Of a DNA stretch of 32,699 nucleotides, positions 6,158-29,792 are shown in pieces. The notes under the pieces are model-generated. The model made no database searches. It was not told the DNA's origin and saw only the letters and a program-made list of their open reading frames with translations. Location: positions 1 through 32,699 of the forward strand of contig JAGCVN010000046.1 in the NCBI GenBank assembly GCA_017962315.1. The letters are read 5' to 3'. A program made the translations under genes and the position numbers. Source of the DNA: Kiritimatiellia bacterium. GTDB lineage: Bacteria; Verrucomicrobiota; Kiritimatiellia; RFP12; UBA1067. Every line of letters begins with the position of its first letter. Within the stretch, counting starts at the first letter, position 1.

Positions 6158-6212
6158 TGCACGCTCCTGTCGATCCAACCTGTCGCGATTTATCTCCATT
6201 TCCCATCTTCCG

Positions 6213-6833: not shown

Positions 6834-6835
6834 AC

Positions 6836-7348: not shown

Positions 7349-7890
7349 CCGAGAACCTCCAGCGCGACTGTGGTGACCGTTCCTATAGCGATCGCGAGGC
7401 CGAACGGGACACGGTTTCCTTCGTCCTCCTTTGGAGGTAGGGCCGCACGGCCAGCCGCGCGGTCATACCGCCAATCGAAAAGAGTACGGAAGGCGTGCTT
7501 CATGCGAGCGGCACCGACCTTCCCCGTAACCAATAGGGCGAGAGCGACGAAAAAACCGGCAAAGGAGACGGCAATGAGGAGCAGAAGCACCTGCTTCATC
7601 CCCACGAACGCCCCGCAAGCCGCCAGCATTTTCACATCGCCCCCGCCCGCCGCGCGGACAAAGAACGGGATCAGGAGGAAGAGGATGCACACCCCCGCCG
7701 CCGCCAGTCCGTCCGTCAACCCGGCACCTCCACCCTGGACAAAATCCAAGACCAACGCACACGCCAGTCCGCCCAATGTCCAAACATTGGGCAGACGGCG
7801 CGTCTTCAGGTCTTTGACGCACAGTACTGCCAACCATGGAAGTAGCAGTAACATACGCAAGAATGTCCATGTGGTTGAAGTCAAAACCAT
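7345..7890 (-). CDS. cpaA: prepilin peptidase, TadV/CpaA type
   Basis: 181 residues, several membrane helices, the short form of the aspartic prepilin peptidase (peptidase family A24) without the N-terminal methylase domain. The two catalytic aspartates are visible: Asp27 in KDLKTRRLPN and Asp85 in the GGGDVK motif. It cuts the Gly|xxxxE leaders of the Flp and TadE-type prepilins at the inner membrane. All its likely substrates (three Flp-like and two TadE-like proteins) are encoded in this window. The gene starts eight bases after the flp stop and its own stop overlaps the next ATG. The ribosome site is weak, consistent with coupled translation. Confidence 0.93.
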   Translation of the reverse strand: MVLTSTTWTFLRMLLLLPWLAVLCVKDLKTRRLPNVWTLGGLACALVLDFVQGGGAGLTDGLAAAGVCILFLLIPFFVRAAGGGDVKMLAACGAFVGMKQVLLLLIAVSFAGFFVALALLVTGKVGAARMKHAFRTLFDWRYDRAAGRAALPPKEDEGNRVPFGLAIAIGTVTTVALEVLG

Positions 7891-7898
7891 TAATCTCG

Positions 7899-8225
7899 CT
7901 ATTTCGTTTTTGTTTGTGTGGACGCATCCGAGAACTTATCCGCCGTTTGTCCAGCTTCGATAAATCCCTTATTCTTGTTACCCTGCACAGTCGATAGAGT
8001 CGTTGTTGCTTCGTTTCCTTTTCCGGTCGCCCCATCCCCCGCCACAGAAAACATTCCAACAATGGTCTTTCCGAACATCGCAACACCAATAACGGCAGCC
8101 GCCGCAATCAGCACCGCGACGATGACGTACTCCATCATCACCGCACCTTTTTCCTCGCCGAATAGGCGGCAGACCGCCTTGCCGTACCAGGAATCCTTCA
8201 TTCTCTGAACCATTGTGTTCTTCAT
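7899..8225 (-). CDS. flp: Flp major pilin
   Basis: 108 residues. Leader of 27 residues ending in EEKG, then AVMMEYVIVAVLIAAAAVIG: Glu at +5 followed by Tyr, the classic Flp pilin signature, then one hydrophobic helix. The tail is longer than in short Flp pilins and polar (GATGKGNEATTTLSTVQG). This is the probable structural subunit of the Tad pilus, cut by the peptidase encoded eight bases downstream. A gap of 42 bases precedes it, the largest in this part of the operon; I saw no clear promoter or terminator there. A paralogue lies at 384-683. Confidence 0.9.
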   Translation of the reverse strand: MKNTMVQRMKDSWYGKAVCRLFGEEKGAVMMEYVIVAVLIAAAAVIGVAMFGKTIVGMFSVAGDGATGKGNEATTTLSTVQGNKNKGFIEAGQTADKFSDASTQTKTK

Positions 8226-8267: not shown

Positions 8268-8648
8268 TCACGGGACGGGAAGCGATAACCCGCCGAGGAG
8301 CCGTTGGAAAAAGTACTTGACCTCAAGGCCAAGCTTCACCAAAGAACCGGATGACCAGTTGTAAAACAACGCATTCATGGCAAGCATGAGGAAACACGCC
8401 ACAAGAACCTGCACAAGGATGTATTCCATCAGCATCGAGCCGCCAGAAGAGCGGATTACACCCGAAAACGCACATCCCGACCAAGTTGCAGACAGGCGCC
8501 GAAACACGCGAGACACACCGGTTATCCTGTTCGTTGCGAAGCGGGAGATGAAACGAAAAACAACAGGAACAACCGCGAACAACAAGGACCAGATTGCCCC
8601 CGGTTGTCCATGTCGTTGAAATAGCAATCCTTTGTTCTTTACTTTCAT
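8268..8648 (-). CDS. atypical Flp-like pilin with a very long leader
   Basis: 126 residues. The prepilin motif is present (Gly70, then SMLMEY with Glu at +5, then the helix ILVQVLVACFLMLAMNALF), but 70 residues precede the cleavage site, whereas Flp leaders are usually 10-30 long. That leader itself has a hydrophobic stretch (IWSLLFAVVPVVF) and many Arg. The start at 8648 is well supported: GGAGG lies six bases upstream and ATGA overlaps the stop of the FHA gene. No in-frame ATG lies nearer the motif. After the helix only about 35 residues remain. It may be a minor pilin or a pilus initiator. The long leader could hold it in the membrane or slow its processing (inference). Confidence 0.8.
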   Translation of the reverse strand: MKVKNKGLLFQRHGQPGAIWSLLFAVVPVVFRFISRFATNRITGVSRVFRRLSATWSGCAFSGVIRSSGGSMLMEYILVQVLVACFLMLAMNALFYNWSSGSLVKLGLEVKYFFQRLLGGLSLPVP

Positions 8649-13119: not shown

Positions 13120-14025
13120 CTAGTGTCCGCCTATCCCCGAAGACTTCATCTGCATAATCACCGGCGTGATCACGATAATAAACACGGCGGGCATGATGAA
13201 AACAGCCATGGGAAAGATCATCAGGGACGGCGCCCGGGCCGCTTTCCGCTCCGCCAGATGAAACCGTGCGCGGCGCAACTCTTCGCCGTGTATGCGCAAC
13301 GTCTCGGAAATGGACGCACCGATTTCCGTGCCGTACGCCACCACACCGACGAACGCGGTAAACGCCTCAACCTGCACCCGCTGCGCCATGTCCTGCAAAG
13401 CCTCCGTGCGGGTCTTGCCCAACTCGATCTGCTGTAGAACCTTTCCAAACTCTTCTGTCAGCGGGCCGGGGATTTTCAATCCTTCAAAATACCGCATGGC
13501 GGCACCGAACTCCAACCCGGAGCGCATCGCGCTACCGATCAAATCAATCGCGAACGGGAGCTGGCGCGTAAGCTCCGTCTGACGCCACTGCACATACTTT
13601 TCAAGGGCGATCGACGGATACGCCCACCCTGCGAATGCAAGGAACAAAAAGAGCAGGACACACACACCCAGCTTCATACCGGGGATCAAGAAAAAGAACA
13701 ACCCGATCACGACACCACCCAACAACGTGAAGGATTGCAAAGTAAAAATCCGTGCGGGAGTAAGGGGAAGTCCGGAAGCCGGAATCCACTTCTCGTATTT
13801 TCGCGTCTTCTCTGCAAACAGGCGTACAAGGGGAGCGCCCAGAGGAAATTCAAAGAGCAGGATGACGTTCCAGCAAAACTGGAATATTCCGGGAAGGTGC
13901 GCCCATCCCGCGCCGTGCTGCTGAATTTGCACGGTATCGTCCCTCGACCAGAAAATGACCGGCAGGACAATCGCAAGAAACACGCACCCGTAGACAAAAT
14001 AGTGATTGAGAAGGATCTCCATCAT
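13120..14025 (-). CDS. tadC: Tad inner-membrane platform protein TadC
   Basis: About 301 residues of the type II secretion F (GspF-like) family. An N-terminal hydrophobic helix is followed by two more around residues 95-135. The cytoplasmic four-helix region has the typical FAIDLIGSAMRSGLEF start and GTEIGASISETLRIHGEELR end, and there is a last long membrane segment (MIFPMAVFIMPAVFIIVITPV). With TadB it forms the platform on which the CpaF ATPase acts to extrude pilins. I start it at the ATG at 14025, one base after the tadB stop and preceded by GAGG. A TTG at 14037 is the upstream alternative. Confidence 0.9.
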   Translation of the reverse strand: MMEILLNHYFVYGCVFLAIVLPVIFWSRDDTVQIQQHGAGWAHLPGIFQFCWNVILLFEFPLGAPLVRLFAEKTRKYEKWIPASGLPLTPARIFTLQSFTLLGGVVIGLFFFLIPGMKLGVCVLLFLFLAFAGWAYPSIALEKYVQWRQTELTRQLPFAIDLIGSAMRSGLEFGAAMRYFEGLKIPGPLTEEFGKVLQQIELGKTRTEALQDMAQRVQVEAFTAFVGVVAYGTEIGASISETLRIHGEELRRARFHLAERKAARAPSLMIFPMAVFIMPAVFIIVITPVIMQMKSSGIGGH

Positions 14026-14026
14026 G

Positions 14027-14731
14027 TCACACCTCAATCGTTATCAGTTTCTTAATGATCACAAACCCGATGGTCTCCAGCGTCAATGCGATGCCGATCG
14101 CAATCCATCCGCCCACCGTCGTCACCAGCGGACGCATCAGGTCCGGCTGAATGAAAAACAGGAGCAGGAATGCAGCCACCGGCGCCGAGGCCATTGCCAT
14201 CGCCTCAAACTTTCCCTGCGCCGTCAACGTCTTCAACTTCGCCTGAAACTCCGTACGGTTGCGGATCATCTCCACCATCGAGGACAACACATCGACCAGA
14301 CTACCCCCCGTCTGCATCGTCAGCCGGATCGAACTAACCAACAGGTTCATATCCTCGCACGGCATCCGTTGCGCGAGACGATCCATCGCGTCGGTAATAA
14401 CCATACCGAGACGATATTCACGCAAGACCGTCGCGATTTCCTCCTGCATCACCCCGCCAAGCTGGGTACTGACCTTATCCAGCGCCTGCGGAAGCGCCAT
14501 GCCGGCTTTCATCGCATTCGCCAGCCCCATCGTCAAATCCAGAATGTGCGACTCGAAGGTAAGCTTACGTTTGCGTTCCCGCATGACCGCCATCCAGCGG
14601 GGACCGAGATACCCGAGCCAGGAGGAGCTATCGACCGAACGCAGGATCGACACCACAGCAGACACGATCGCGCAGATCGCGGCAAACACAAGGACATAAA
14701 CGCCGATCGCCTTCAGCAACTGTTCCGACAC
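14027..14731 (-). CDS. tadB: Tad inner-membrane platform protein TadB
   Basis: 234 residues, type II secretion F family. An N-terminal membrane helix (VYVLVFAAICAIVSAVVSI), then the F-domain helices (LDLTMGLANAMKAGMALPQAL through the LTMQTGGSLVDVLSSM signature), and two C-terminal membrane helices. It is rather shorter than many TadB proteins, missing part of the usual N-terminal region, but the core is intact. The start is a GTG with AGGAGGTG immediately upstream, which makes the assignment firm despite the rare start codon. It lies nine bases after cpaF and one base before tadC, the standard Tad order ATPase-tadB-tadC. Confidence 0.9.
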   Translation of the reverse strand: MSEQLLKAIGVYVLVFAAICAIVSAVVSILRSVDSSSWLGYLGPRWMAVMRERKRKLTFESHILDLTMGLANAMKAGMALPQALDKVSTQLGGVMQEEIATVLREYRLGMVITDAMDRLAQRMPCEDMNLLVSSIRLTMQTGGSLVDVLSSMVEMIRNRTEFQAKLKTLTAQGKFEAMAMASAPVAAFLLLFFIQPDLMRPLVTTVGGWIAIGIALTLETIGFVIIKKLITIEV

Positions 14732-14740
14732 TTACACCTC

Positions 14741-16447
14741 CTACACCTTCGGCACGAACACGGACATATCCAGCCGCAGGACATTACGCTGCCGCTGTTC
14801 CTCGATAAAAAAGGGAATGTTCCCGGTCGCAGAATACTCCCCCTGCACGTTCCCCTTGGAGTCGATACTGGATTGTCTAAACTCGAAAATGTCCTGCATC
14901 TGAATAACCTCGTTCTCCCTTCCTGTTATCTCCACGATTTTCACGATCTTGCGCGAGCCATCCCCCAGACGGGTTTGTTGCACGATCAGATCGATCGCGC
15001 TGGAAATCTGCTCCCGGATCGCGTTGGACGGCAAATCATATCCCGCCATCATCACCATGTTCTCCAGGCGGGAAAGCGCGTCGCGGGGATTGTTCGCATG
15101 GGCGGTCGTCAACGAGCCGTCGTGCCCCGTGTTCATCGCCTGGAGCATATCGAGCGCTTCGGCTCCGCGGCATTCGCCGACGATGATCCGATCGGGGCGC
15201 ATACGGAGGCAGTTGATCACCAAATCGCGGATGGTGATCTTTCCCTTACCCTCCACGTTCGCTGGGCGCGCCTCCAGGCGGACGATATTCCGATGGGAAA
15301 GCTTCAGTTCGGCAGAATCCTCCACTGTGACGACACGCTCCCCCTCCGGTATGAACTGCGAGAGGATGTTGAGAAGCGTTGTCTTACCAGACCCGGTACC
15401 ACCGGAAACCAAAATGTTCTGGCGCGCACGGACTGCCTCCGCAAGGAACAGTGCCATATCCTTCGTCATGGAACCGAAACCGATCAAATCCTCCGTCGTC
15501 AATTTCTTTTCTGCGAACTTCCTGATGGTCAAGGAGGCGCCGTCAAGCGCCAGGGGCGGGATGATCGCGTTGACACGGCTCCCGTCGGGAAGGCGTGCGT
15601 CCACCATCGGGCTGGCGTCGTCCACATGGCGCCCCAACGGCTCGACGATCCGCTGGATGATCTGGATCAGGTGCCGTTCGTTGAAGAAACGGACGCCGGT
15701 TTCGTAAAGCTTGCCCTTCGACTCGACAAAGATCCGGTCGGGACCGTTCACCATGATTTCCGTGATTTCCTTCATCCGGATCATCGGCGAAAGCGGTCCG
15801 AACCCTGTCAATTCATCCAGCAGGGACTGCCGCAGGACGGTGTGCGGAACATGATCCGGCAACTCATGGCTAACCTCCCGGAGAACCTGATCCAGACAAT
15901 GCTCCGCATCCGCAGCCAGTTCTTGGTTGTCAGCGAGGTTCGCGTTCTTCCCCATTGGGTCGATGCGGGACAACACCAGATTGTGGATACGCGACTTGAG
16001 CGACATCATCTCGTTCGTACAGAGGAGCATGGCGTCCCGAAAAACCGAAACGAAATCATCCGGGCGACTTGTGTCGCCCCCCGGCATACCGATCGACACG
16101 AAACTTGATACGTCGCGGTCATCCTCCCTGCCAGTCATCACCGGTTGTGCCGTGCGTTCAAGCGACAGGCAGAAAGTCCCGATACGGATGGTATCATCCT
16201 CCCCAACGGGCATTATGTCGACAACCCGCGTCTCGTTCACGTAGGTTCCGCCGCGACTCCCCAGGTCTTCCACAAACAGGGAACCTTGGCTGCAGGTCAA
16301 TCGCGCATGAAAACGCGAAACGGAAGAGTCTCTGTCGAGACACAACTCGTTGTCCCGGTGGCGGCCAACGCTCAAACTCCCTCCGGAAGAGGGCAGATCC
16401 GCATAACGGGTCTGCCCCGTTGTTTGTGATGTGACGAGAATCCGCAT
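14741..16447 (-). CDS. cpaF: FHA-domain CpaF/TadA secretion ATPase
   Basis: About 568 residues. The N-terminal 100 residues are an FHA domain (SVGRHRDNELCL, SVSRFHARL, DLGSRGGTYVNE) that should bind phosphothreonine. From about residue 150 follows a type II/IV secretion ATPase of the CpaF/TadA family: Walker A GGTGSGKTTL near 347-356, Walker B RIIVGECRGAEALDML near 417-430, then the His box HDGSLTTAHANNP. It powers pilin extrusion with TadB and TadC. The start ATG overlaps the secretin stop as TAATG; there is no strong ribosome site, so coupling is likely. A TTG at 16471 is a less likely alternative. FHA-CpaF fusions are known in other bacteria. Here the fusion stands next to kinase and phosphatase genes, so direct phospho-control of the motor is plausible. 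Confidence 0.95.
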   Translation of the reverse strand: MRILVTSQTTGQTRYADLPSSGGSLSVGRHRDNELCLDRDSSVSRFHARLTCSQGSLFVEDLGSRGGTYVNETRVVDIMPVGEDDTIRIGTFCLSLERTAQPVMTGREDDRDVSSFVSIGMPGGDTSRPDDFVSVFRDAMLLCTNEMMSLKSRIHNLVLSRIDPMGKNANLADNQELAADAEHCLDQVLREVSHELPDHVPHTVLRQSLLDELTGFGPLSPMIRMKEITEIMVNGPDRIFVESKGKLYETGVRFFNERHLIQIIQRIVEPLGRHVDDASPMVDARLPDGSRVNAIIPPLALDGASLTIRKFAEKKLTTEDLIGFGSMTKDMALFLAEAVRARQNILVSGGTGSGKTTLLNILSQFIPEGERVVTVEDSAELKLSHRNIVRLEARPANVEGKGKITIRDLVINCLRMRPDRIIVGECRGAEALDMLQAMNTGHDGSLTTAHANNPRDALSRLENMVMMAGYDLPSNAIREQISSAIDLIVQQTRLGDGSRKIVKIVEITGRENEVIQMQDIFEFRQSSIDSKGNVQGEYSATGNIPFFIEEQRQRNVLRLDMSVFVPKV

Positions 16448-18048
16448 TACCAACAAAACCAGTTCAGCCAAGACCAGAAACCGTGAAACCTCTTCTGCCG
16501 TTCGTCAATCCGCTGCTCGGTTGTTTTGCCCCCTTCCGTCTGAACCGGGATCGTGACATCGTTTTCGACATCAATCGTCCCCTCCTGGGACGGATCCAAA
16601 ATTTCAGGGCAAACCATGATGATCAGGCGGCGGTCGCTCATCTCTTTCCCGTTGGACGCGACGAACCAACTGAGCAGCGGCACATTGCGCAGGACCGGAA
16701 ATCCCTTCAACGCACGAGCATCCATCAACTGCCCGAATCCACTCAGAAGCGTTGTCCTTCCAAGCGGGCAACGAACCTTCTGCTGAGTCGAATCCTCCTT
16801 CTTGTCGATGTCATCACCTTGCCCGTATGGCTGGATCGCGGATATGCTGATGTCCATGTCCATATCTACGACATTGGTTTCCACCAGTCCGCCGGTGGTT
16901 TTGACATCGAATCCGTACGGAATCTCTTTCAAATCGGCGGCATCCGCCCCCGCAACACGGACGAAAACGGTACCCCCGCTTTTGAAATGGGCGCCTTTCG
17001 CATCCCAGTTCTGGAAAACCGTATAAGCCTTGGAGGAAACCCGGTTGATCCCGTTCTGCGCCATCAACCTGATCACACCGTCCAGCCCAAGGCTAAGCGT
17101 AGCCGTATTACCGTGGTTTCCGCCTCCGTGAAGAAGGTTCTGGATAGTCTGGAACACGCCGCTCAGGACAACCCCCCCGTTGTTCTGGTCACCCAACTGC
17201 CGAAAGTCTTCTTCGCCGATCGCCATATACGCCACGCTGAGACGGATCGTGGGCTTGTCAACAATCAGTTTGGGGCGGAGACGAACCGCGTAGTCCGCCT
17301 TTTCCCGGGCTCTCCCGGCATCCTTCTCCTCTTTTTCCGAACCCGCCCCCACCAACCAAGGCTCGTCGCCCAAGACAGACAGAATCGTATTCTTCTGTTC
17401 CTCGTTCAATAAACGGGCATGGACAAACAATTCGGCCGGACTGGTTTTTTTATTGAGGTTCAGGGCGACCGTGCCGATCGGCCATTTCTTCTCCTGTTTC
17501 TCCTCGAACGGACGAAACTGAACCGTAAGCCCGTATTGCTCCAACGTGGTCTGAAGACGTGCGAGGACTTCCGGGGCGGGATAGAATTTGACGTAGTTTT
17601 CGACAATCTCGCCATACTTCCGGAGGGTCTTGCTAAGCGCCTCCCATTTCTGGATACTGGAAATCTCTCCGTCCAGACGGATAATATGTCCGACGATTTG
17701 GGCGCTCACCCCCGGCAGCGGAATGAAGTCTAATTCCTTCAGCAGGGTTTCCAACGTCAGCGCAAGATCGTCCACAACCATGATTTCATATTTTTTTGAA
17801 AGCCCGTTGTCCCCCATGACGTCCAGATCGCAACGGCCGCGCCTCACACCGGTGATGCGGAGAGACGTCGTCTCCAGAAGCTCGATACGCACCACGTCCT
17901 TGTTGGACGGTGCATAATTCTTCACGGCAAATGGAACAGTGACCGTGCGGGACTCGTTTTCGACAACCGAAATTTCCTCGATATCCCGTGCTTGGGTAAA
18001 CAAAGCCGCAACGGCGGCGAACATGAACAGAAGCAAACCCTTTTTCAT
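16447..18048 (-). CDS. cpaC: Tad secretin (CpaC/RcpA)
   Basis: 533 residues. A signal peptide (MKKGLLLFMFAAVAALFTQA) is followed by the pilus N-terminal domain seen in CpaC/RcpA (about 25-95: VENESRTVTVPF, ending GLSKKYEIMVVDD). A BON-like segment follows to about 180. The C-terminal secretin domain ends with the conserved LLSGFGQLMDAR, GFPVLRNVPLLSWFV and DRRLIIMVCPEI motifs. It forms the outer-membrane ring through which the pilus passes, which makes the host a diderm. It follows cpaB by 21 bases with AGGA eight bases before the ATG. Its stop overlaps the cpaF start. The last 45 residues extend beyond the secretin fold, as in other CpaC proteins. Confidence 0.94.
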   Translation of the reverse strand: MKKGLLLFMFAAVAALFTQARDIEEISVVENESRTVTVPFAVKNYAPSNKDVVRIELLETTSLRITGVRRGRCDLDVMGDNGLSKKYEIMVVDDLALTLETLLKELDFIPLPGVSAQIVGHIIRLDGEISSIQKWEALSKTLRKYGEIVENYVKFYPAPEVLARLQTTLEQYGLTVQFRPFEEKQEKKWPIGTVALNLNKKTSPAELFVHARLLNEEQKNTILSVLGDEPWLVGAGSEKEEKDAGRAREKADYAVRLRPKLIVDKPTIRLSVAYMAIGEEDFRQLGDQNNGGVVLSGVFQTIQNLLHGGGNHGNTATLSLGLDGVIRLMAQNGINRVSSKAYTVFQNWDAKGAHFKSGGTVFVRVAGADAADLKEIPYGFDVKTTGGLVETNVVDMDMDISISAIQPYGQGDDIDKKEDSTQQKVRCPLGRTTLLSGFGQLMDARALKGFPVLRNVPLLSWFVASNGKEMSDRRLIIMVCPEILDPSQEGTIDVENDVTIPVQTEGGKTTEQRIDERQKRFHGFWSWLNWFCW

Positions 18049-18069: not shown

Positions 18070-18879
18070 TTAGTTGGCCTTCTTGGTTGTTGAACCGGAA
18101 GCGTTATCCGGAATCACAACTGGTTCCAGATTCGCCTTCAATCCTTCCAGCGTCGAATCGTTGACAATCCCCACGTCCCGGCGCTTCAGTGAACTCATGT
18201 CGCTTGAGCGGCGAAGCGCCGGGTAAAGTTCCATGATCCGCTGTGCAGCGACTAGAGTCGCAGCCTGCTGGGGATTGAGGGCAACGATTATCGTCCCGTT
18301 CCCCCCTGCGTCTTCACCGCGACGGATCGCGTCCCCTTTCCCGATGTCCAAGATACGGACACAGGGAAAGATTACACTCGTAGAGCGTTCCTCTTCCACA
18401 TCCGCTTGTTCCGTCACATCCGCCTTCTGGATTTTTTTCTGGGAAACGGAAGTTGCGAGAATGGCGATTTCGTCCCCCGGCTGCAGGAACAAGACGAGGG
18501 ACGGATCGGAAAACGTGACCGGAACCGCCCATTCTCCTTCGGATAGCGCCCCCGCCAATCGAATCTCCATCCCTTTGACATCACTGGAGAGAATGTAGTC
18601 GTTCCTGGCGATTGTGCGGATCGTCGTCTGCCCGACCACCTGATTGCGCTGCGACCAGGGAATCGCTTTCGTAGGCAAGGAGGAAAGCTCAACCCGCCGC
18701 GGCACCAGCCAATCTTCTTTGATCGCATCGTCTTTCGGTGTGATTTCTTTCGACGCGGAAACCACCTCGACATACTGGCTTTCCCTCTCCGAATCCTTCG
18801 GACGGATCATCCTGCTGACCGCGAACACGGCGATCAGACCAAGCACCACTGCTATCACCAACGGTATCGTATTTTTCAT
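18070..18879 (-). CDS. cpaB: Flp pilus assembly protein CpaB
   Basis: 269 residues. An N-terminal membrane anchor (IPLVIAVVLGLIAVFAVSRM) is followed by an SAF-like/CpaB region: VVSASKEITPKDDAIKEDWL, then IARNDYILSSDV, then WAVPVTFSDPSLVLFLQPGD, the usual CpaB order. A C-terminal segment has NPQQAATLVAAQRIMELYPALR, also typical. CpaB is a periplasmic partner of the secretin. It is the first gene of the Tad operon, about 60 bases downstream of the promoter at 18938-18966. The ribosome site (AAGG, ten bases upstream) is modest. Confidence 0.93.
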   Translation of the reverse strand: MKNTIPLVIAVVLGLIAVFAVSRMIRPKDSERESQYVEVVSASKEITPKDDAIKEDWLVPRRVELSSLPTKAIPWSQRNQVVGQTTIRTIARNDYILSSDVKGMEIRLAGALSEGEWAVPVTFSDPSLVLFLQPGDEIAILATSVSQKKIQKADVTEQADVEEERSTSVIFPCVRILDIGKGDAIRRGEDAGGNGTIIVALNPQQAATLVAAQRIMELYPALRRSSDMSSLKRRDVGIVNDSTLEGLKANLEPVVIPDNASGSTTKKAN

Positions 18880-19607: not shown

Positions 19608-22600
19608 TCAAGGTTTTTCACCCGGGAGCAGTTCCTCAAACAAGCCCTCTAATTTCTTTAAGTACTCCTTGGCTGATTTCCCCATCCGTTCGCTAGAGGA
19701 CTTGCGTTCGAGATCCTCTTTCCCGGACTGGTACATTTCACGAATCTTTTTTTCGTCGTCGCCGCTCAACCGGTATTCCAGTTTCACAATCTGCTGATAC
19801 TTCTCCAACGTGTAAATGCTATCGCGGCCAGCCGATTCATCCGATTTATTCTGTATCAGATTGTCAATTTCATCCAGCGTCCTGCCCCACATCTTTGAAT
19901 TCGCCACCTGTGTCTCCAGTCTGGTCTTGCGTTTTTTGTTGTCTTGCCCCCGGACATCCGCGTTCTTCAAGAAACCTTCCGCACCGTCCCAGTCGCGGTC
20001 ATTCACGGCCTTCTCCGCATCTAGCAGGTTGCGCAATCCAGCCGTAGGCAGCCAATCCTCCGGAGAGGGAAGCGTGAGCGGCTGATTCACTTCAACGATC
20101 AATCTGCGAGGCTGATCCTCATAGTCCGTTTTCCGGTAGGCATACTCGTACGGTTGCCCCTTCGGTGTCAGTTCGAACACCTCACCCGTCCGATACGCAG
20201 TGCCGGCCACCTCGCAGGAGACATCGGGGGGCAGATCCGGCGGCACGGTCACCTTCACCGGGAGGGGTGTCCACTCCGTCGGTGCCGGGAGTACGCTGTT
20301 CACGCCAACCGAAAGCTCAAAGGGCTTCTTCTGTTCATAATACCCCGCCCTCATGTACACGCAGCTATATTCCCTTCCCGGCCGCAACTTCAATGTTCCG
20401 TCCACCTTGCGCACCTCGCCGTCCAACGTCATCTTGCAGGCCACGTCATCGGGCAATTTCGGCACGGCCACCTCCACCGGCGACGCCACCCACGCACCGG
20501 GGTTGGGGAAACGCGCGTCCGTCTCCCCGATCTTCACCGTGAACCGCAGACCTTCCCGTCTATCATACCCCGCACGACGGTAGGCGCACGTGTACTGTCC
20601 CGGCTTCACCGCCTTGCCGGACACCGGTACATCCTTTCCGTCTAGCTCGCAGACAACGCCTGCATCCAACCCTTGCGGCGGCTTCACGAGCACGTCGCTT
20701 GGGGTGAACGCATCGTCCGCCAGCGTCACCTTCTTTCCGTCCAGCGTTTCCCGGTTCACCGTCACGGGGTCATAGCCGTGGCGCGTGACCGTCCAGGACG
20801 CCCCTTCCTTGAAGACAACCGTCGCGGTCGCACCCGCCGCCACGTTCGTCCCGCCGATGGACAGCGGACCTCCCGTGCGGTTGACGATCTCTCCCGCCGT
20901 CCAGGCCAGCCGCGCTTCAATCTCCGCAAGCCGCCGCCCCGTCTCCTCCTCCGCGAACAGCTTTTCTTTCCTGGACGCCTCGAGCATCCCCTTCACATCT
21001 TCCAGACGTTTCCGCCTGGACGCAACCGGCTCATCTTTCATCGCCGCACCGTACACCTTCAGGATGCCCTTGCGTTTCCGCTCGATCTCCGCGAGGCGTC
21101 TCTCCGCATTCGTCCTGGCCCCCGCGATCCCGCCATCGGCTTCCTTGTACCCCGACTCACCGGCCAGATCCTTCCATTTTTCCTGCCATTCCCGCCGCGC
21201 CGCGTCCGCCTTGTCCAGCTCCTGCCTTGTCGCGACCGAGCCGAACGCGCGGGCGACGACGGCGGCCGCTTCCCGGCACGCCGCCACCTTCCGGGCCAGC
21301 TCCGCCTTCTCCACCCGGGCCGCCGCGTCCGCCCTGGCCTCCGCGATCCCGCCGTCGGCTTCCGCATACCATGCCTCTCCGGACAGGTCCTTCCATCTCT
21401 TCTGCCAGTCCCGATACGCCGCGTCCGCCTTCTCCAGCTCCTCGCGCCCGTTCGCCTTGCCGAATACATCGCCCAACTTCGCTGCGGCAGTCTTGCACGA
21501 GACGCGGGCGTCCGCGGTATTGCGGCAGGCCTGCACCTCTTCGTCCAGCCCGGCATAGCCGTCCACCTTTTGCGGCCTCCATTCGTCCCGCCACGCCTGC
21601 AGCGCCTTCTCCGCCGCCGCCAGCCCGGCTTCATCCGTCGCGGACTGGAAATCGCCTTTCAGTTTCGTCGCCGACTCCTCGCACGCCTTCTTCAGCGCGG
21701 CCGCCCGTTCCGCCGCTTCCGCGTCCGCGATCCGTCTCGCGGCGGCGGTGCGCGCCTCCCGGATTTCCTCGTCGAGTCCGGCGTATGCCGCCGCCGCCAG
21801 TTTCAAACGCCACGTGTTTTGCCACGCCGTGTACACATCGTCGGCCACGGCCAGCCCGGCACGGTCCGGTACACGCGCAAACGCGTCGGCTATCTTCTTC
21901 GCGGCCTCTGAGGACTCCGCAATCGCAACCCGCCTTTCCGCATCGTCGTGCGATGTCCGGATCCTCTGGTCGAACCCCTGGTAAACCTTGCCGTCGATCT
22001 GTGCGGCCCAGCGCCCCTGCCATTTCTGCCAAGACTCCTTCGGTTGGCGGAGGTCGTTCCGCGCTTTCACCCTTGCGAAAGCGGCGGCAAGCTCGTCCAC
22101 CTCCGCTGAACACGCTTGGACTTTCTGATTCTTGATCAGGGCGATTCGCGTCCCAGCCGCGTCACGGGCCGTCTGGATCTGGCCGTCGTGGGCATTGTAA
22201 TCGTCGTTCCCGATTTCCCCGCGCCATTTCTTCCAGTCTTCACTCGCCTCTGCGAAAGCATCGTTATCGGCCGCTTTGTCGAAGGCTTCAACCACTTTTT
22301 TCTTCGCGGTCTCGGCTTCCTCGGACTTCCTCCGCCGCTCGACCGCGCGTTCCCCGTTTACGACCCGCGCCTCCGCCGCGTCGTGGGCATCCCGTATCCG
22401 GCCATCACACTCGGCGTATACCGCTTCATCGAGCGCCCGTTCCTGCTTCCATTTCTCCTGCCACCCTTTCCAGCGTTCGGAAGCGGCGTTCAGCGCGCTT
22501 TCGCCGTCTGCGGCGTCGAAAGCCTCCTCCACGGCCTTGGCGGCGGACGCGCACTCCTCCTGAAGGCGGATCCGCCCGTCCGCCTTGTTCCGGGCGGTCA

Positions 22601-25600
22601 GCACTTTTTCTTTCAGTTCTTTGTATTTGTTCTCGCCAAGGAGTCCCTTGTCCCATTTCGTCATCCGGGCAAGCCGTTCTTTTTCCACTTTTTCCCAGGT
22701 CTCGCGGTCTGCCGCAGACTTGAACCGCTCCACCAGGATGTCCGCGTCTCGAAGCGTCCCACGAATTTTATCTGTCCGCGCTTTATTCTTTTCAACCGCC
22801 TGGTTGCAGCTTGATTTGGCGGCTTCCAGCTCTTTTTCCCAAATGCTGAATTGCTCGTTCGGAATCCTTTTCCACCAACCGGCGAGATTCGGGGTCCACG
22901 TCTTTATCCATTCGTCCTTTCGCGTATCCAATGTCTTCAATGTCTCTTCGTGTTTCTCCGTATCGAGGACCGGCTCGCCCTTCGCATATACTTCCTCTAT
23001 ACTCTTGTACGTTTCCACAATGGCGTTTTTTTCTCGCGCGGCACAACGTCTCTGGAAGGAGAATGCGCCGAAAAGAATTCCGGCGGAGCCGCCCGAGACC
23101 GCAACCAAAAGTCCTGCGGCAAGCGCCCACTTGCGCAAACGATCCGATGGCGGCACCAACGGGGCGATAACAACGAAGTCATCCCGAGGGTTCAATGGCA
23201 GAAGATTTTCTTTTACCCCCGCATCCACCGCCAGTCTGCGCAATTCTTTGTACACATCCTCGGCAGTCCCCCGCTTCTTCGCGACGAGGTTTGTCATCTG
23301 TTCGAGAAGCGCGAGAAGCCTTTTGTTTTTGCGTACTCGCGGGTCTTCAAAAACGGGTGGGGTTTCCCTTTGCTTAAGCCAAGCCTCCCACGGACTGTTT
23401 TTGGGCAGCCTCGGATACCCCGATTTTGCCGTCAACGCCTCGTAGAGGCACAGCCCCAATGCAAAGATGTCTCTGCTTTTATCGTCGCGATTCTCCCTGC
23501 TATCGGCCGGCATGTAGTCGGGCGTTCCGCAAAGGGGGGTCGGGGTTCCGGTCGCATCAACATCGCGGGCGATACCCAGGTCCATGATTTTGGATTCTTC
23601 GGGACGTCCTGCCGGATAATATAAGTTGCTCGGTTTGATATCGCGGTGGATAATTCCCTTTTCATGCAACACGTGCAACCCGCTGGCATACCGCGCAAAG
23701 GCGAAGAGAACATCACGGGGCGACAATCCGGTACGACTCCTTTTGATCGCACCGCGCAAGGTGTTTGCGGGCATCCCGTCCAGAAACTCCATGACGAGAA
23801 ACCCCCTGCCCGATGCCAATGGAGGCTGGAAGAAATCGATGTACCGTGTGAAACACCCGTTCCCGTCCAGTTTCATCATCATGCGGGCTTCTTGCTCAAA
23901 TTTTTTTATACCTGATACATTTTCGAGTTGTTTGACCGCCACGTGTTCTTCAAGTGTTCTCTGGGTACGGATGTTAATCCGTTTTGCCTCGTACACCGTT
24001 GCGTATCCGCCCTGATCGACATAACGCAAGATCCGGTATGTGTATATTCCATTTCTCAGCTCCCGGGGTCTGAGATCTTTTTCAAAACTCTCGAAATCCG
24101 GATAACGCAGATTCCGGTCCAAATGGAGTGCGGACTCGAAGACTTTTGCCCCGTTTCCCAACAGGTCTTCGATCCGTCTGTCGGTATGGATCGGACTCTC
24201 CTTGCCGCCGTCGAGGACCCCCTCCCACAGCCTGCCGAATTGCCCTACGTCCCCGATCGGGGCATGTGGGAGTTTTCCCGCCAGCAATTCATATAACACC
24301 ACACCCAGTGAAAAAATGTCGCTTTGGATATCCCCCTGGAACGATCCATCGCCGAGAAAGTCGGGCGCCATGTAATTCCACGACCCCCGCATGTTTCCGT
24401 CCCCGGTAGTTGTCGGCGTCGTTTCTTCCCCCGAGTCCTGCCGTTGTTGCAACGCGATCTCGAAATCGATTACCTTGACACTCCCGTCATCGCAAATGAA
24501 AATGTTCGCTGGTTTGATGTCGCGGTGGACGATGCCCGCCCGCGCCGTTGCCTGCAATCCATGGATCGCGGCGCGGATGATTCTCAAAGCCTCTTCCACG
24601 TCTAGGCGGGGAAGGGATTTCTCTCTCTGTTCCTCGAGAATTTCCCACAGGCTCTTGCCTTCCAGAAACTCCTGAACGACAACGTAGTAACGCCCTGACC
24701 CGTACTTTTCATCAGTATATTGGAAACAACCGTAATAGCGGACGACATTCGGATTCTGGAGTCGCACCAGCGTGTCCGTGATCTTCTGAAGCTTCGGCCA
24801 CAGGTCTTTCGTGCCGCCAAGGTATGGCATAATCTTGAGGGCGACCCGTGTCCCCACCGGAACAAGATGCGAGGAATCATTCACGCAGACAGCTTCAAAA
24901 ACCGTCCCTGTGCCGCCCGAACCGTTGTGGACTTTCGCCCGCACCTCGAATCCACCGATTACAGGACGCTCTTCCTTTGTCTCTTCCGTCGGCGATTCGG
25001 TCGGCGGTTCCGTTACGGTCAGATCCTCCGTTTCAGGTTCGTCCGCTTCCGGAAACGCATCCGTTTCCGCGCCCGCTTCCAACGCCAGCTTTCGCAGACG
25101 CGCGACAACCTGCCGGATTTCCCCCTCGCGTTTTTCCGATGACGGATTGGTCATGTCGCAGAGCAGGGCGAGAATGTCGCGTGACCCCTGGACCCTGGGA
25201 TCGTCGAAAACCGGCGGATCTCCGTTTTTCGCCCGCTCCAGGAAGGCGGGCAGGGCCGCATTCCCCGTCGGCAGACGGGGATACCCCGTTTTCCCCGTCA
25301 ACGCCTCATAGAGACACAGCCCGAGTGCGAAAATGTCCATCCTCGCGTCGCCCCGGTTTTTCGTGAGGATCACCTCCGGCGGCATATAGTCGAACGTTCC
25401 GGGAACTCCGCCATCCTTCGTCTGCGTCCCGTGGATGTCGCGAATGATTCCGAAGTCCATAATCGCGGACTTATCGGGCGCACCCCTTGGGTAATACAGG
25501 TTGGACGGTTTGATGTCGCGGTGGTAAATCCCTTGTCCGTGCATCAGGCTCAACCCGTATGCATACCGCCTGAATGCCAGGAATACATCCTTCGGCGGAA

Positions 25601-26828
25601 GCCCCGTGCCAGATTCTCGAATCGCGTCACGCAGGGAATTGCCGGGCATCCCGTCGAGGAAGGCCATGACGAGAAAGGCCTCGCGGTGCTTCACATCCCC
25701 GCTCTCGATGTAAAAGAAATCTACGAACTGGACAAAACAGGGATCCCTTAGCTTCTTCAGCGTCCGGGCCTCCCGGTAAAAGCGGTCTGCATAGGAATCC
25801 TTCAACAAATGTTTCACGGCAACCAACTGTCCCGTCTGCCGGAGACGCGCCTTGAAGACCTCCCCGAAGCCACCCTTGCCGATGTATTGGAGCATTCGGT
25901 AGGTATTCGCCCCGTTTTTCAAATCCCGGAATCGGATCTTCTTGAAATCCGCGTCGAAACTCGCGAAATCCGGATAGCGATCCTCCCGTCTCGGCGCGAG
26001 CGCGCGCAAGAGTACCTCGTCCGCATGCGCCAACAGGCGACGGATCCGGCCGCTGATTCGGATTGGGTTGACGGTCTGCCCGTCTCCGGATTTCGCCCAG
26101 CGGGCGAGGAACGCAAAATTCGCCTGTTTCTCGTCTCCGGGAAGTCTCTGGTAAGGCGTCTTACCCGTCAATACTTCGTGTATCACGACGCCGAGCGAGA
26201 ATACATCGCTCTGTTCGTCCCCGTGAAACAAAGGATCGGTAAAGTCCGGCGCCATATAATCAAATGAACCGCGTATATTCCCGGAGACCGAAACGCTCGT
26301 CCCTCCTTCCTGTCTCGCGATCTCGAAGTCGATCAGTTTAACCGCACCGTCATCACAGATAAAGACATTCCCCGGCTTGATGTCGCGGTGGATAATTCCC
26401 GACTTTGCCGTATAATTCAGGGCGGAGAGCGCCTCATGGATAATCCGCATTCCCTCGTCGACATCCAGACCGGCGGGGAAATCGTCCTTCAGCCGTTGTT
26501 TCAGTGTCTTCCCGTTCAGGTGCTCCAGTACCACGACATGAAGGTCGTTGAAATCCCCCGCCTCGGAAAAACAGCCATAATAACGGACCACGTTGGGATG
26601 TTGCAGATGCGCCAGTTCCTGCGTCCGCCTTTCCAGTTTCCGCCATTGATCCCCGGTGTCGTCCTGGACCGGCATGATTTTCAGTGCGACGACCGTACCC
26701 ACAGGGACGAGACCGTGCCGATCTTCCTCGCACACCGCCTTGTAGACGGTCCCCTGACTTCCGGAACCACCGTGTATTTCATGGAGGATCTTGAATCCTC
26801 CTACCCCCCTGTCTCTCTTCTCGGCCAT
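19608..26828 (-). CDS. membrane Ser/Thr kinase with four kinase domains, W..W repeats and PEGA-like modules
   Basis: 2406 residues. Four eukaryotic-type kinase domains lie in series (about 12-300, 310-590, 625-930, 935-1215). Each has HRDIKP (His147, 436, 768, 1061), the following Asn, a glycine loop and the VALK/AVK lysine. Domains 1 and 3 are alike (DFE instead of DFG, MAPD instead of APE). Domains 2 and 4 are alike (DFG and DLG). So the array is an A-B-A-B duplication. A membrane helix (about 1231-1255) is followed by about eight 70-residue helical repeats (C..A, AF, W..W...W, Y, D..I..AR), then three or four PEGA-like beta modules (1975-2260) and a helical C-terminus. The part after the membrane is probably periplasmic. 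It starts three bases after the phosphatase stop with no clear ribosome site, so it is coupled. Likely targets are proteins read by the FHA domains nearby. Confidence 0.93.
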   Translation of the reverse strand: MAEKRDRGVGGFKILHEIHGGSGSQGTVYKAVCEEDRHGLVPVGTVVALKIMPVQDDTGDQWRKLERRTQELAHLQHPNVVRYYGCFSEAGDFNDLHVVVLEHLNGKTLKQRLKDDFPAGLDVDEGMRIIHEALSALNYTAKSGIIHRDIKPGNVFICDDGAVKLIDFEIARQEGGTSVSVSGNIRGSFDYMAPDFTDPLFHGDEQSDVFSLGVVIHEVLTGKTPYQRLPGDEKQANFAFLARWAKSGDGQTVNPIRISGRIRRLLAHADEVLLRALAPRREDRYPDFASFDADFKKIRFRDLKNGANTYRMLQYIGKGGFGEVFKARLRQTGQLVAVKHLLKDSYADRFYREARTLKKLRDPCFVQFVDFFYIESGDVKHREAFLVMAFLDGMPGNSLRDAIRESGTGLPPKDVFLAFRRYAYGLSLMHGQGIYHRDIKPSNLYYPRGAPDKSAIMDFGIIRDIHGTQTKDGGVPGTFDYMPPEVILTKNRGDARMDIFALGLCLYEALTGKTGYPRLPTGNAALPAFLERAKNGDPPVFDDPRVQGSRDILALLCDMTNPSSEKREGEIRQVVARLRKLALEAGAETDAFPEADEPETEDLTVTEPPTESPTEETKEERPVIGGFEVRAKVHNGSGGTGTVFEAVCVNDSSHLVPVGTRVALKIMPYLGGTKDLWPKLQKITDTLVRLQNPNVVRYYGCFQYTDEKYGSGRYYVVVQEFLEGKSLWEILEEQREKSLPRLDVEEALRIIRAAIHGLQATARAGIVHRDIKPANIFICDDGSVKVIDFEIALQQRQDSGEETTPTTTGDGNMRGSWNYMAPDFLGDGSFQGDIQSDIFSLGVVLYELLAGKLPHAPIGDVGQFGRLWEGVLDGGKESPIHTDRRIEDLLGNGAKVFESALHLDRNLRYPDFESFEKDLRPRELRNGIYTYRILRYVDQGGYATVYEAKRINIRTQRTLEEHVAVKQLENVSGIKKFEQEARMMMKLDGNGCFTRYIDFFQPPLASGRGFLVMEFLDGMPANTLRGAIKRSRTGLSPRDVLFAFARYASGLHVLHEKGIIHRDIKPSNLYYPAGRPEESKIMDLGIARDVDATGTPTPLCGTPDYMPADSRENRDDKSRDIFALGLCLYEALTAKSGYPRLPKNSPWEAWLKQRETPPVFEDPRVRKNKRLLALLEQMTNLVAKKRGTAEDVYKELRRLAVDAGVKENLLPLNPRDDFVVIAPLVPPSDRLRKWALAAGLLVAVSGGSAGILFGAFSFQRRCAAREKNAIVETYKSIEEVYAKGEPVLDTEKHEETLKTLDTRKDEWIKTWTPNLAGWWKRIPNEQFSIWEKELEAAKSSCNQAVEKNKARTDKIRGTLRDADILVERFKSAADRETWEKVEKERLARMTKWDKGLLGENKYKELKEKVLTARNKADGRIRLQEECASAAKAVEEAFDAADGESALNAASERWKGWQEKWKQERALDEAVYAECDGRIRDAHDAAEARVVNGERAVERRRKSEEAETAKKKVVEAFDKAADNDAFAEASEDWKKWRGEIGNDDYNAHDGQIQTARDAAGTRIALIKNQKVQACSAEVDELAAAFARVKARNDLRQPKESWQKWQGRWAAQIDGKVYQGFDQRIRTSHDDAERRVAIAESSEAAKKIADAFARVPDRAGLAVADDVYTAWQNTWRLKLAAAAYAGLDEEIREARTAAARRIADAEAAERAAALKKACEESATKLKGDFQSATDEAGLAAAEKALQAWRDEWRPQKVDGYAGLDEEVQACRNTADARVSCKTAAAKLGDVFGKANGREELEKADAAYRDWQKRWKDLSGEAWYAEADGGIAEARADAAARVEKAELARKVAACREAAAVVARAFGSVATRQELDKADAARREWQEKWKDLAGESGYKEADGGIAGARTNAERRLAEIERKRKGILKVYGAAMKDEPVASRRKRLEDVKGMLEASRKEKLFAEEETGRRLAEIEARLAWTAGEIVNRTGGPLSIGGTNVAAGATATVVFKEGASWTVTRHGYDPVTVNRETLDGKKVTLADDAFTPSDVLVKPPQGLDAGVVCELDGKDVPVSGKAVKPGQYTCAYRRAGYDRREGLRFTVKIGETDARFPNPGAWVASPVEVAVPKLPDDVACKMTLDGEVRKVDGTLKLRPGREYSCVYMRAGYYEQKKPFELSVGVNSVLPAPTEWTPLPVKVTVPPDLPPDVSCEVAGTAYRTGEVFELTPKGQPYEYAYRKTDYEDQPRRLIVEVNQPLTLPSPEDWLPTAGLRNLLDAEKAVNDRDWDGAEGFLKNADVRGQDNKKRKTRLETQVANSKMWGRTLDEIDNLIQNKSDESAGRDSIYTLEKYQQIVKLEYRLSGDDEKKIREMYQSGKEDLERKSSSERMGKSAKEYLKKLEGLFEELLPGEKP
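20905..21340 (-). repeat. DNA block shared with the phosphatase gene
   Basis: This part of the kinase gene (last W..W repeat, the KRLEDVKGMLEASRKEK segment and the start of the PEGA region) closely matches 27550-27990 in the phosphatase gene at the DNA level. Over about 135 bases (20900-21034 against 27557-27690) I see only a handful of differences. This indicates recent duplication or gene conversion between the two neighbouring genes. Confidence 0.85.
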
Positions 26829-26831
26829 CGG

Positions 26832-29792
26832 TTATTTCAGTGTGGATGCTTTCTCAACTGCATCGAAAAAGTTCTTCATGCGGGAGATGTTTGATCGTTT
26901 GCCATTCCCTTTCGAATCGAAGAACTCATTGCAAGCCGCATGAAGCGCAGTATATCTCTCTTTCCTGCTGTTAACCTGGTCTTGTTCATTCTCATCCACT
27001 CCTACCACCTGCAATTCCTGCTCCGCAACCTCGCTTAAATTTTCAGCGATCTGGTCCAGAAGCGATATGATTTCCCCATACTGATTCGTGCCCGACATCC
27101 CGGTAACGCCGAGTTTTTTCACTTCCGCCTCGAATCTCTCCAAAAGTTCGTTCTCGCCGACAACCTGTCTCAACTCTTCAATAAACCGTTCCGCCTGTGC
27201 TTTGGAAACAGTCTGGTCCGGTTTCTTTGCCCCAGACGGTTTCTGTTCCTTGACGGGCGTCTGCGCCGCGACTTGCTTCTTCGGCAGCGCTTCCGGTTTC
27301 TTCACGTTGCCCGGTTTCTGTGGCTCTGCGGATTTCTGCGCCGGCAACGCTTTCCATCTGCCTGGCTCCAGCGTCACCGTCTTTCCGTCCAGCTCTTCCC
27401 GTGTTACCGTAATTGGTTTGTACCCGCGCCGCGTAACCGTCCAGGACGTCCCTTTTTTGAAAACGACCGTCAACGTCCCGCCGGGTTGCACCGACACTTT
27501 ATCCGCTCCGAAGACGACCGCTTCAGCGGCACGGTTTTCGATCACCCCGACCGTCCAAGCCAGCCTCGCTTCAATCTCCGCAAGCCGCCGCCCCGTCTCC
27601 TCCTCCGCGAACAGCTTTTCTTTCCTGGACGCCTCGAGCATCCCCTTCGCATCTTCCAGACGTTTCCGCCTGGACGCAACCGGTTCATCGGTCAATGCCA
27701 GATTGTATATCTTCAGAATGTTTTGGCGCTTCTGCTCGATCTCCGCGAGGTGCTTCTCCGCGTCCGCCCTGGCCCCCGCGATCCCGCCGTCAGCTTCCTT
27801 GTACCCCGCCTCGCCGGTCAGCTCCTTCCATCTTCCCTGCCAGTCCCGCCGCGCCGCGTCCGCCTTGTCCAGCTCCTGCCTTGTCGCGACCGAACCGAAC
27901 GCGCGGGCGACGACGGCGGCCGCTTCCCTGCACACCGCCATCTTCCGGGCCAGTTCCGCCTTCTCCACCCGGGCCGACGCGTCCGCCCTGGCCCCCGCGA
28001 TCCCGCCGTCAGCTTCCTTATACCCCGCCTCGCCGGCCAGCTCCTTCCATCTTCCCTGCCAGTCCCGCCGCGCCGCGTCCGCCTTGTCCAGCTCCTGCCT
28101 TGTCGCGGCCGAACCGAACGCGCGGGCGACGACGGCGGCCGCTTCCCGGCACACCGCCATCTTACGGGCCAGTTCCGCCTTCTCCACCCGGGCCATCGCG
28201 CCGTCGCGTGCCGTCTGCATCTCTTCGTTCAGCCCGGCATAGCCGTCCACCTTTTGCGGTTTCCACTCGTCCCGCCATGCCTGCAGGGCCTTCTCCGCTG
28301 CCGCCAGTCCGGCTTCATCCGTCGCGGACTGGAAAACGCCTTTCAGTTTCGCCGCCGCCGCCTCGCATTCCTTCTTTAGCACGGCTGCCCGTTCCGCCGC
28401 TTTCGCACCCGCGATCTTGTGTGCCGCGGCTTCGCGCGCCGCCTGTATCCGGGCGACGAACTCGGCGTATACCGTTTTGTCAAGAGCCTGTTCCTGCTTC
28501 CATTTCTCTTGCCAGCCCTTCCAGTTCTCGGAAGCGGCGTTCAGAGTATTCTCGTTGTCTGCGGCGGCGAAGGCATCCTCCACGGCCTTGACGGCGGATG
28601 CGCACTCTTCCTGAAGGCGGATCCGCTGAAACTTCGCCCGCTGAACGTAATTCAAGCCCGTAATTGCACCCAACACCAGAACGATTCCAAAGGAGCACCA
28701 GATCCAGCGACGGGAACGGCTCCCTTTTTTCCCCGATATGGGAGCATTGGAGGGCGTCGGTACCCCGGGGTCACTAGCATCGTCTACCTCGTCTTGCGCC
28801 TCCGGCACTGTCACCGTTGAACAAGTCTGCGAGTCATCGTCGCTGAATCCGATTGTCGGCGCCGCCGAAAAAAGCTCTTCCGTTTCTGATTCAAACGGTT
28901 CAACACTCCCGTTTGCGCTGGTGGCGTCAACCGTCTCCGTTCCGTTGATGCCTGTCCAGGTAACGCTTGTACTGGAATCCTCGTCCGGGGCGTCAGACGA
29001 CGGGGGTGCAACCTGAAGGGGAATCGCCGGGATCGGCATCGGCAGTTGTCCAATCTCAATCAACTCTACCGTGATATTGTCAACGCCACCCGCTGCATTG
29101 GCAGCGGCGACGAGGGCATCCACCGCCACCTGTGGCGATCCGTTTGCACGGACGATCGAGAGAAGCTGCTTGTCAGGAACCATGCGCGACAAGCCGTCAC
29201 TACAGATCAAGACGCGGTCGCCCTCCCGTACCGGGAATTCCGTCGCCTGAAGTTCCACCGACGGTTGGATTCCGACAGCGCGGAGAATCATCCCCCGGAA
29301 CATCGGATTAATGTCTTTCTCATTCTTCGCGCCGATCAACTCCGCCGCAGAATGGTCGATGGTAATCTGCTGGATGGTCCGTCCGCGGATACGGTAGAGG
29401 CGGCTGTCGCCCGCATGAAGGGCAACCGCTTGATCCGGACGGGCGGCATCAAACACGACCCCGACGAACGTCGAACCGCATCCTTTCAACCCCCGCTCCT
29501 TCGTACGCCGGAAAATCCATGCCGACGCGGTGTTGACACTGGCGCGGATCCCGGCCAGGATATCATCGCGCGTGTAGGTCAACTGCGGGGGAAGCTTGTG
29601 CGACTCGCAGAAACACTGCACCTCGCGCACGGTGGCGGCGGAGGCGACTTCGCCGTCGTCCCCGCCGCCCATGCCGTCGGCCACGCAAAAGATTCCGGAT
29701 TCAGGGAAAATCCCATAGGCGTCTTCGTTGTTTTTCCTCTTCTTGCCGATATCACTTTTTACGGCAAACCGGATATGGTCGAAAACCGACAT
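26832..29792 (-). CDS. membrane PP2C-type Ser/Thr phosphatase with W..W repeats and a PEGA-like module
   Basis: 986 residues. Residues 1-245 are a PP2C (PPM) phosphatase with all metal-site motifs: NNEDAYG, VADGMGG, CGSTFVGVVF, LHAGDSRLYR, DRVLICSDGLSRMV and GGVDNITVELIEI. A Ser/Thr/Asp-rich linker leads to a membrane helix at about 362-382 (WIWCSFGIVLVLGAITGLNYV). Next come four 70-residue helical repeats that match repeats 1, 5, 7 and 7 of the kinase's last seven, then a PEGA-like module (about 745-800), a Lys/Pro linker and a C-terminal domain of about 130 residues. The phosphatase should remove phosphate from Ser/Thr marks placed by the kinase. It starts 23 bases after the adhesin stop with AGGAG six bases before the ATG. 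The near-identical repeats 3 and 4 look like a recent duplication. Confidence 0.93.
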   Translation of the reverse strand: MSVFDHIRFAVKSDIGKKRKNNEDAYGIFPESGIFCVADGMGGGDDGEVASAATVREVQCFCESHKLPPQLTYTRDDILAGIRASVNTASAWIFRRTKERGLKGCGSTFVGVVFDAARPDQAVALHAGDSRLYRIRGRTIQQITIDHSAAELIGAKNEKDINPMFRGMILRAVGIQPSVELQATEFPVREGDRVLICSDGLSRMVPDKQLLSIVRANGSPQVAVDALVAAANAAGGVDNITVELIEIGQLPMPIPAIPLQVAPPSSDAPDEDSSTSVTWTGINGTETVDATSANGSVEPFESETEELFSAAPTIGFSDDDSQTCSTVTVPEAQDEVDDASDPGVPTPSNAPISGKKGSRSRRWIWCSFGIVLVLGAITGLNYVQRAKFQRIRLQEECASAVKAVEDAFAAADNENTLNAASENWKGWQEKWKQEQALDKTVYAEFVARIQAAREAAAHKIAGAKAAERAAVLKKECEAAAAKLKGVFQSATDEAGLAAAEKALQAWRDEWKPQKVDGYAGLNEEMQTARDGAMARVEKAELARKMAVCREAAAVVARAFGSAATRQELDKADAARRDWQGRWKELAGEAGYKEADGGIAGARADASARVEKAELARKMAVCREAAAVVARAFGSVATRQELDKADAARRDWQGRWKELTGEAGYKEADGGIAGARADAEKHLAEIEQKRQNILKIYNLALTDEPVASRRKRLEDAKGMLEASRKEKLFAEEETGRRLAEIEARLAWTVGVIENRAAEAVVFGADKVSVQPGGTLTVVFKKGTSWTVTRRGYKPITVTREELDGKTVTLEPGRWKALPAQKSAEPQKPGNVKKPEALPKKQVAAQTPVKEQKPSGAKKPDQTVSKAQAERFIEELRQVVGENELLERFEAEVKKLGVTGMSGTNQYGEIISLLDQIAENLSEVAEQELQVVGVDENEQDQVNSRKERYTALHAACNEFFDSKGNGKRSNISRMKNFFDAVEKASTLK
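27550..27990 (-). repeat. DNA block shared with the kinase gene
   Basis: Partner of the block at 20905-21340. Order and orientation are the same, about 6.6 kb apart in direct orientation. A recombination between them would delete most of the phosphatase C-terminus and the kinase domains. Confidence 0.85.
27757..28194 (-). repeat. two near-identical 219-bp tandem repeats
   Basis: Two head-to-tail copies, each encoding 73 residues of the phosphatase repeat region (ELARKMAVCREAAAVVARAF and onward). I see five base differences in about 214 compared. The period is a multiple of three, so gain or loss of a copy keeps the frame. Confidence 0.9.

Follow-up and report, generated by a model that had tools for sequence, protein, structure and literature searches.

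We analyzed a 32,699-nt stretch of DNA from a Kiritimatiellia bacterium (the window, meaning that whole stretch) and found that it encodes, at 19608..26828 on the minus strand, a 2406-aa single-pass membrane protein with four kinase domains in the order A-B-A-B. This layout is best explained as a lineage-specific doubling of an older two-kinase A-B unit. The gene lies next to that of a PP2C phosphatase and upstream of genes for a Tad pilus whose motor ATPase carries an FHA domain. Since an A-B kinase beside a matching phosphatase is linked to an FHA-carrying Tad pilus, the tandem kinase probably serves to regulate this pilus.

The translated ORF, which has an ATG start, matched Pkinase (Pfam) over four separate stretches with a whole-protein E of 8.7e-137, and in a whole-genome scan each of the four places scored 106-132 bits against a cut-off of 31.7. 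Domain A1 (25908..26810, minus; residues 7-307) scored 449 bits with the A-profile and has K50, HRD-D149, N154 and a DFE at 167-169. Domain B1 (25062..25907, minus; residues 308-589), with 429 bits for the B-profile, is canonical and has K339, Glu353, HRD-D438, N443 and a DFG at 458-460. The second unit consists of A2 (24045..24965, minus; residues 622-928; A-profile 377 bits), with K665, HRD-D770, N775 and a DFE at 788-790, and B2 (23208..24044, minus; residues 929-1207; B-profile 366 bits), with K966, Glu980, HRD-D1063, N1068 and a DLG at 1083-1085. The catalytic Lys, the HRD-Asp, the Asn and the DFG-Asp were thus present in all four domains. B1 and B2 have both the helix-C Glu and a Gly in the DFG motif. 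A1 and A2 have neither: both read DFE, and where PknB has its helix-C Glu an alignment to PknB put Arg68 in A1, with Ile683 at that position in A2. The original prediction had placed HRDIKP loops at residues 147, 436, 768 and 1061, and we found them to start exactly there. The motifs it had listed for domains 1 and 3 (DFE and MAPD) and for domains 2 and 4 (DFG/DLG and FLVMxFLDGMP) were all present as well, and the Pfam, A-profile and B-profile matches agreed with the A-B-A-B order, on the minus strand. PknB was a sequence match for each kinase domain, and an AlphaFold model of A1-B1 (pLDDT 84, pTM 0.85) matched the PknB fold with both A1 (Z 28) and B1 (Z 27.6).

Hydropathy indicated one transmembrane helix at residues about 1235-1257 (23058..23126, minus), after the fourth kinase domain, in line with the membrane helix predicted earlier. 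The kinases would then lie inside and the C-terminal part outside. No PASTA repeats were detected in this ectodomain by Pfam, which returned no family for it at E up to 5. The NCBIfam PASTA kinase equivalog NF033483 nevertheless scored 480.5 on the protein against a cut-off of 450, probably because the four kinase stretches are summed. Automatic annotation may therefore misname the protein, and we rejected its identity as a PASTA kinase (Stk1/PknB) on the ground that the ectodomain lacks the repeats.

We then considered whether the four domains could be an assembly duplication, an outcome that had been named as a threat to the original prediction. This was ruled out since units 1 and 2 were just 51% identical and a congener (G001) had the same A-B-A-B order, with identities of 85, 83, 77 and 81% for A1, B1, A2 and B2, respectively. 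In this comparison the kinase domains had dN values of 0.10-0.13 (0.10-0.11 for unit 1 and 0.11-0.13 for unit 2), far below the dS values of 0.55-1.09, and all four are under purifying selection between the congeners. No A-B member was seen in two further genomes of this genus, whose completeness is 74% and 66%.

By profile search, the A-B unit was present in 24 of 115 genomes at family level, in 27 of 162 at order level and in 47 of 346 at class level; in an evenly drawn sample of the phylum, just two genomes from outside the class gave a match, a weak one in one case. The A-B-A-B arrangement was limited to two of the 346 genomes, while single A-B proteins occurred in the 45 others, a wide spread that the original prediction had missed. 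All 57 units had the order A-B, and nearly all other proteins of the family were two-domain A-B chains. In a tree of the domains, all A domains fell into one group and all B domains into a separate one. Together with the invariant order, this indicated that the tandem is old and that A-B-A-B is a lineage-specific doubling. The joint A+B tree of the 57 units clustered both units of the genus (bootstrap 96, SH-aLRT 98), with unit 2 on a long branch (0.82), in agreement with the predicted duplication of a two-kinase unit. In the single-domain tree, on the other hand, A1 was closer to other genera than to A2. As the joint tree has more columns and groups units 1 and 2, we preferred a doubling within the lineage. 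The claim that four kinase domains per chain are highly unusual was upheld: four are rare, with one other layout besides the two A-B-A-B genomes, but two per chain are ordinary in the class. The other layout is an independent chain of four kinase folds in G210 (L194:4402-11199), consisting of a degenerate A-like domain, an A, a B and an additional canonical kinase; its gene comes after those for a PP2C and a short TadA. Some genomes carry more than one separate A-B gene (two or three), and in G071 two of its three A-B genes flank a PP2C gene. A scan of GTDB contigs gave other kinases alone among the matches listed; nearly all of those examined had one domain per ORF, with two in L037 and L038. 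No 16S sequence was detected in the genome that holds the window. Plasmid candidates from tblastn were rejected, as the best matches put the A and B halves on one ~800-bp stretch and so represented the same single kinase. We found no tandem-kinase family of this sort in the open-access literature that was searched.

The two domain types differed in their active sites. Among the 57 units, B is a canonical kinase in its residues, with the HRD-Asp retained in all 57, the helix-C Glu in 56 and the DFG Gly likewise in 56. The A domains kept the beta3-Lys in 56, the HRD-Asp in 56, the Asn in 57 and the DFG-Asp in 57, but had the helix-C Glu in only 7 and the DFG Gly in 16; in two A domains the catalytic-loop Lys is replaced by T. 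A simple dead pseudokinase was unsupported for A given that nearly all A domains keep the catalytic residues, and we infer from these residues that each kinase domain may be catalytically active. The earlier suggestion that A regulates B is plausible since the helix-C Glu, like the DFG Gly, is missing from most A domains, although A is not clearly a pseudokinase. The two positions tended to change together in A (helix-C/DFG-Gly pairs R-E in 21, Q-D in 12 and E-G in 7 of 57). This co-change was concentrated in a few clades, leaving too few independent pairs for a statistical test, and we treat it as a lead, not proof.

The gene for the PP2C phosphatase (26832..29792, minus) lies upstream of the kinase gene and its stop codon is 3 nt before the kinase start. 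The PP2C domain (residues 1-260; PP2C_2 in Pfam, E 7e-12; Stp1_PP2C, 174 bits) is followed by a transmembrane helix at about residue 363 and by four spectrin-like repeats at residues 396-683. In about 40 of the 56 A-B loci a PP2C gene was directly upstream on the same strand, and hydropathy placed a transmembrane helix after the kinases in 51 of 56 A-B proteins and in 39 of 43 PP2C proteins. Directly upstream of the PP2C gene we observed an adhesin-like ORF with low-complexity beta-repeats (29816-32698, minus) that runs off the end of the contig and matches no Pfam family; G001 and G026 each have a relative of it at the corresponding position.

The kinase ectodomain contains eight spectrin-like three-helix repeats of ~64 aa (21090..22748, minus; residues 1361-1913), as identified by a repeat profile, and the rest of it (19611..21089, minus; residues 1914-2406) appears by eye beta-rich and then helical and matched no Pfam family. 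The repeats number 8 in the kinase and 4 in the PP2C here, and 14 and 4 in G001. An AlphaFold model of two repeats (pLDDT 97) had a three-helix layout with a long helix running continuously from one repeat to the next. Its best structure match was to spectrin repeats (Z 10.5 over 128 residues), a value that helical bundles can reach by arrangement alone, and Foldseek with the repeat model returned no significant E. Within the window, the kinase and PP2C ectodomains were 66% identical over 413 aa, and 79.7% in DNA over 1109 bp, while the ectodomains of this kinase and that of G001 were only 38% identical although their kinase domains were ~80% identical. Because the ectodomain is closer to that of its own phosphatase than to that of the congener's kinase, the comparison suggests that the two genes exchanged ectodomain sequence or underwent gene conversion, making the locus an apparent example of such exchange between a kinase and its own phosphatase. 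Such similarity within the same locus was found at 5 loci, this genome included.

Downstream of the kinase gene the window carries a set of Tad and FHA genes, all on the minus strand, and the original prediction had missed this Tad pilus/PP2C/FHA module. A 728-bp gap, in which a scan for promoters and terminators did no better than on shuffled sequences, separates the kinase gene from that of a CpaB/RcpC Tad pilus protein (18070..18879; Pfam). It is followed by a secretin of the CpaC/RcpA type (16447..18048; Pfam) and a TadA/CpaF motor ATPase with an N-terminal FHA domain, a class III CpaF (14741..16471; T2SSE E 1.4e-68, FHA E 6.2e-16). In this FHA-TadA, the FHA domain spans residues 34-98, with its G-R and S-x-x-H residues present, and T2SSE spans 221-499; the protein scored 327.9 bits with the NCBIfam TadA family, below the cut-off of 373. 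Two T2SSF ORFs encode the TadB and TadC platform proteins (13120..14731). FHA protein 1 (10990..13107) has an FHA domain, a Thr-rich acidic linker and a transmembrane helix, and FHA protein 2 (8645..10990) has two FHA domains and a hydrophobic stretch near residue 228, which brings the FHA domains in the window to four of the nine found in the genome. A pilin-like Flp (7899-8225) and a prepilin-peptidase-like ORF (7345-7890) were assigned from sequence alone, and TadE (6213-6839) and TadG (3713-6274) by Pfam. In the linker of FHA protein 1, TxxF/I motifs were enriched in this genome (p 0.0015) and not in the homologues of the protein, and the enrichment was consequently not used as evidence. 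A D-x-T-R-x-F-I motif ahead of the transmembrane helix is common to this protein and that of G001. Either linker motif is possibly a candidate FHA target here, though not a general one.

To relate the kinase to this type of pilus, we defined a close FHA-TadA subtype as TadA matches with at least 58% identity, a cut-off set after the gap in identities was seen. Among the 346 genomes of the class, A-B was present in 28 of 34 with the subtype and in 19 of 312 others. Fisher's test gave 5e-23 over genomes and 5e-8 over genera, with kinship corrected only partly, at genus level. Exceptions occurred in both directions, with 19 A-B genomes lacking the subtype and 6 genomes having the subtype and no A-B. 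In at least 2 of these 6, a single-domain kinase lies beside a short TadA, in one case also with a PP2C. About half of the A-B loci have Tad or FHA genes nearby; in G001 the Tad genes and the kinase/PP2C pair occupy separate contigs.

Our preferred reading, which we hold to be about evenly balanced between right and wrong, is that the membrane tandem kinase and the membrane PP2C form an on/off pair for the FHA-equipped Tad pilus, with A tuning B. The canonical B would be the main phosphotransferase of each A-B unit. A, which retains the ATP-site and catalytic residues but has mostly lost the helix-C Glu and the DFG Gly, would bind nucleotide and tune B. The kinase would phosphorylate threonines of the pilus machine or of the FHA proteins, the PP2C would take the phosphate off, and the FHA domains, including that on the TadA/CpaF motor, would read the phospho-threonine marks. 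The two large ectodomains, which in this genus carry the same type of spectrin-like repeat in both kinase and phosphatase, may sense, or be held by, one common envelope partner. It is also in this genus that the A-B unit was doubled to A-B-A-B. The model is by analogy with the threonine phosphorylation pathway of type VI secretion, which consists of the membrane Ser/Thr kinase PpkA, the PP2C phosphatase PppA and Fha (PMC5995506). Both systems encode a membrane Ser/Thr kinase, a PP2C and FHA proteins with a secretion-type machine. Here, however, that machine is a Tad pilus, and the window showed no type VI secretion genes. The kinase domains come as A-B or A-B-A-B tandems, and the PP2C carries a membrane helix of its own along with ectodomain sequence in common with the kinase.

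The active sites also permit a different role for A. It could be an active kinase in an internal cascade, phosphorylating B or being phosphorylated by it, which the doubling would have extended here to a four-kinase series. The almost invariant catalytic residues of A, its predicted fold as a full PknB-like kinase and the paired changes at the helix-C and DFG-Gly positions, which might reflect a rewired but working site, agree with such a cascade; the confinement of those changes largely to a few clades, with too few independent events, and the two A domains with T for the catalytic-loop Lys do not, and we regard it as doubtful. A more specific form, in which an acidic E or D at the DFG Gly position replaces the helix-C Glu in a working A and the A-B units in series make a four-step cascade gating the pilus motor, seems to us quite improbable.

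It is also conceivable that A-B-A-B has no special function, having arisen when adjacent A-B genes fused or through a tandem duplication and then persisted by drift, with unit 2 spare or decaying. The rarity of the layout and the long branch of unit 2 would fit this, as would the genomes that carry two or three A-B genes apart from each other, one of them with a pair flanking a PP2C gene. We consider it unlikely, as the catalytic residues of unit 2 are complete in both species and its dN is on a par with the low dN of unit 1. Alternatively, the pair might act on another envelope function, such as growth of the cell wall or the adhesin-like neighbour, in which case its link to Tad would be one of neighbourhood only. 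In G001 the pair lies away from the Tad locus and beside the adhesin-like ORF that neighbours it here too, and the A-B genomes lacking the close FHA-TadA subtype point the same way. Against this stand the strong co-occurrence of A-B with the subtype and the Tad or FHA genes close to about half of the A-B loci, and we think such a function a tentative possibility that is rather unlikely.

As described in PMC12019362, class III CpaF has an FHA domain on the Tad motor ATPase, and the TadA in the window likewise has an N-terminal FHA ahead of the ATPase. The passages describing it name no kinase, whereas a candidate kinase/phosphatase pair is encoded close by here, and the locus thereby points to the kinase and phosphatase that may write the marks for FHA-domain Tad motors. 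Compared with PknB/Stk1 Hanks kinases, each domain is alike in sequence, and the predicted A1 and B1 also in fold, but a chain carries either two or four of them, PASTA repeats were not detected in the ectodomain here, and A is without the helix-C Glu and DFG Gly. In eukaryotes, pseudokinase-kinase tandems such as JAK JH2-JH1 and the plant tandem kinases place a canonical kinase domain after an unusual one. The A-B tandem resembles them in this conserved order; it differs in being bacterial and of Ser/Thr type and in keeping the catalytic residues of A, and sequence gives no evidence of kinship. A-B offers a conserved bacterial case in which an unusual kinase domain is joined to a canonical one, and it should be useful for learning how such tandems work.

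In addition to the FHA-TadA, a short TadA-like ATPase, of about 340-410 aa in most cases, adjoined the A-B kinase or the PP2C in roughly a dozen loci, among them L029, L173, L176, L196 and L209.
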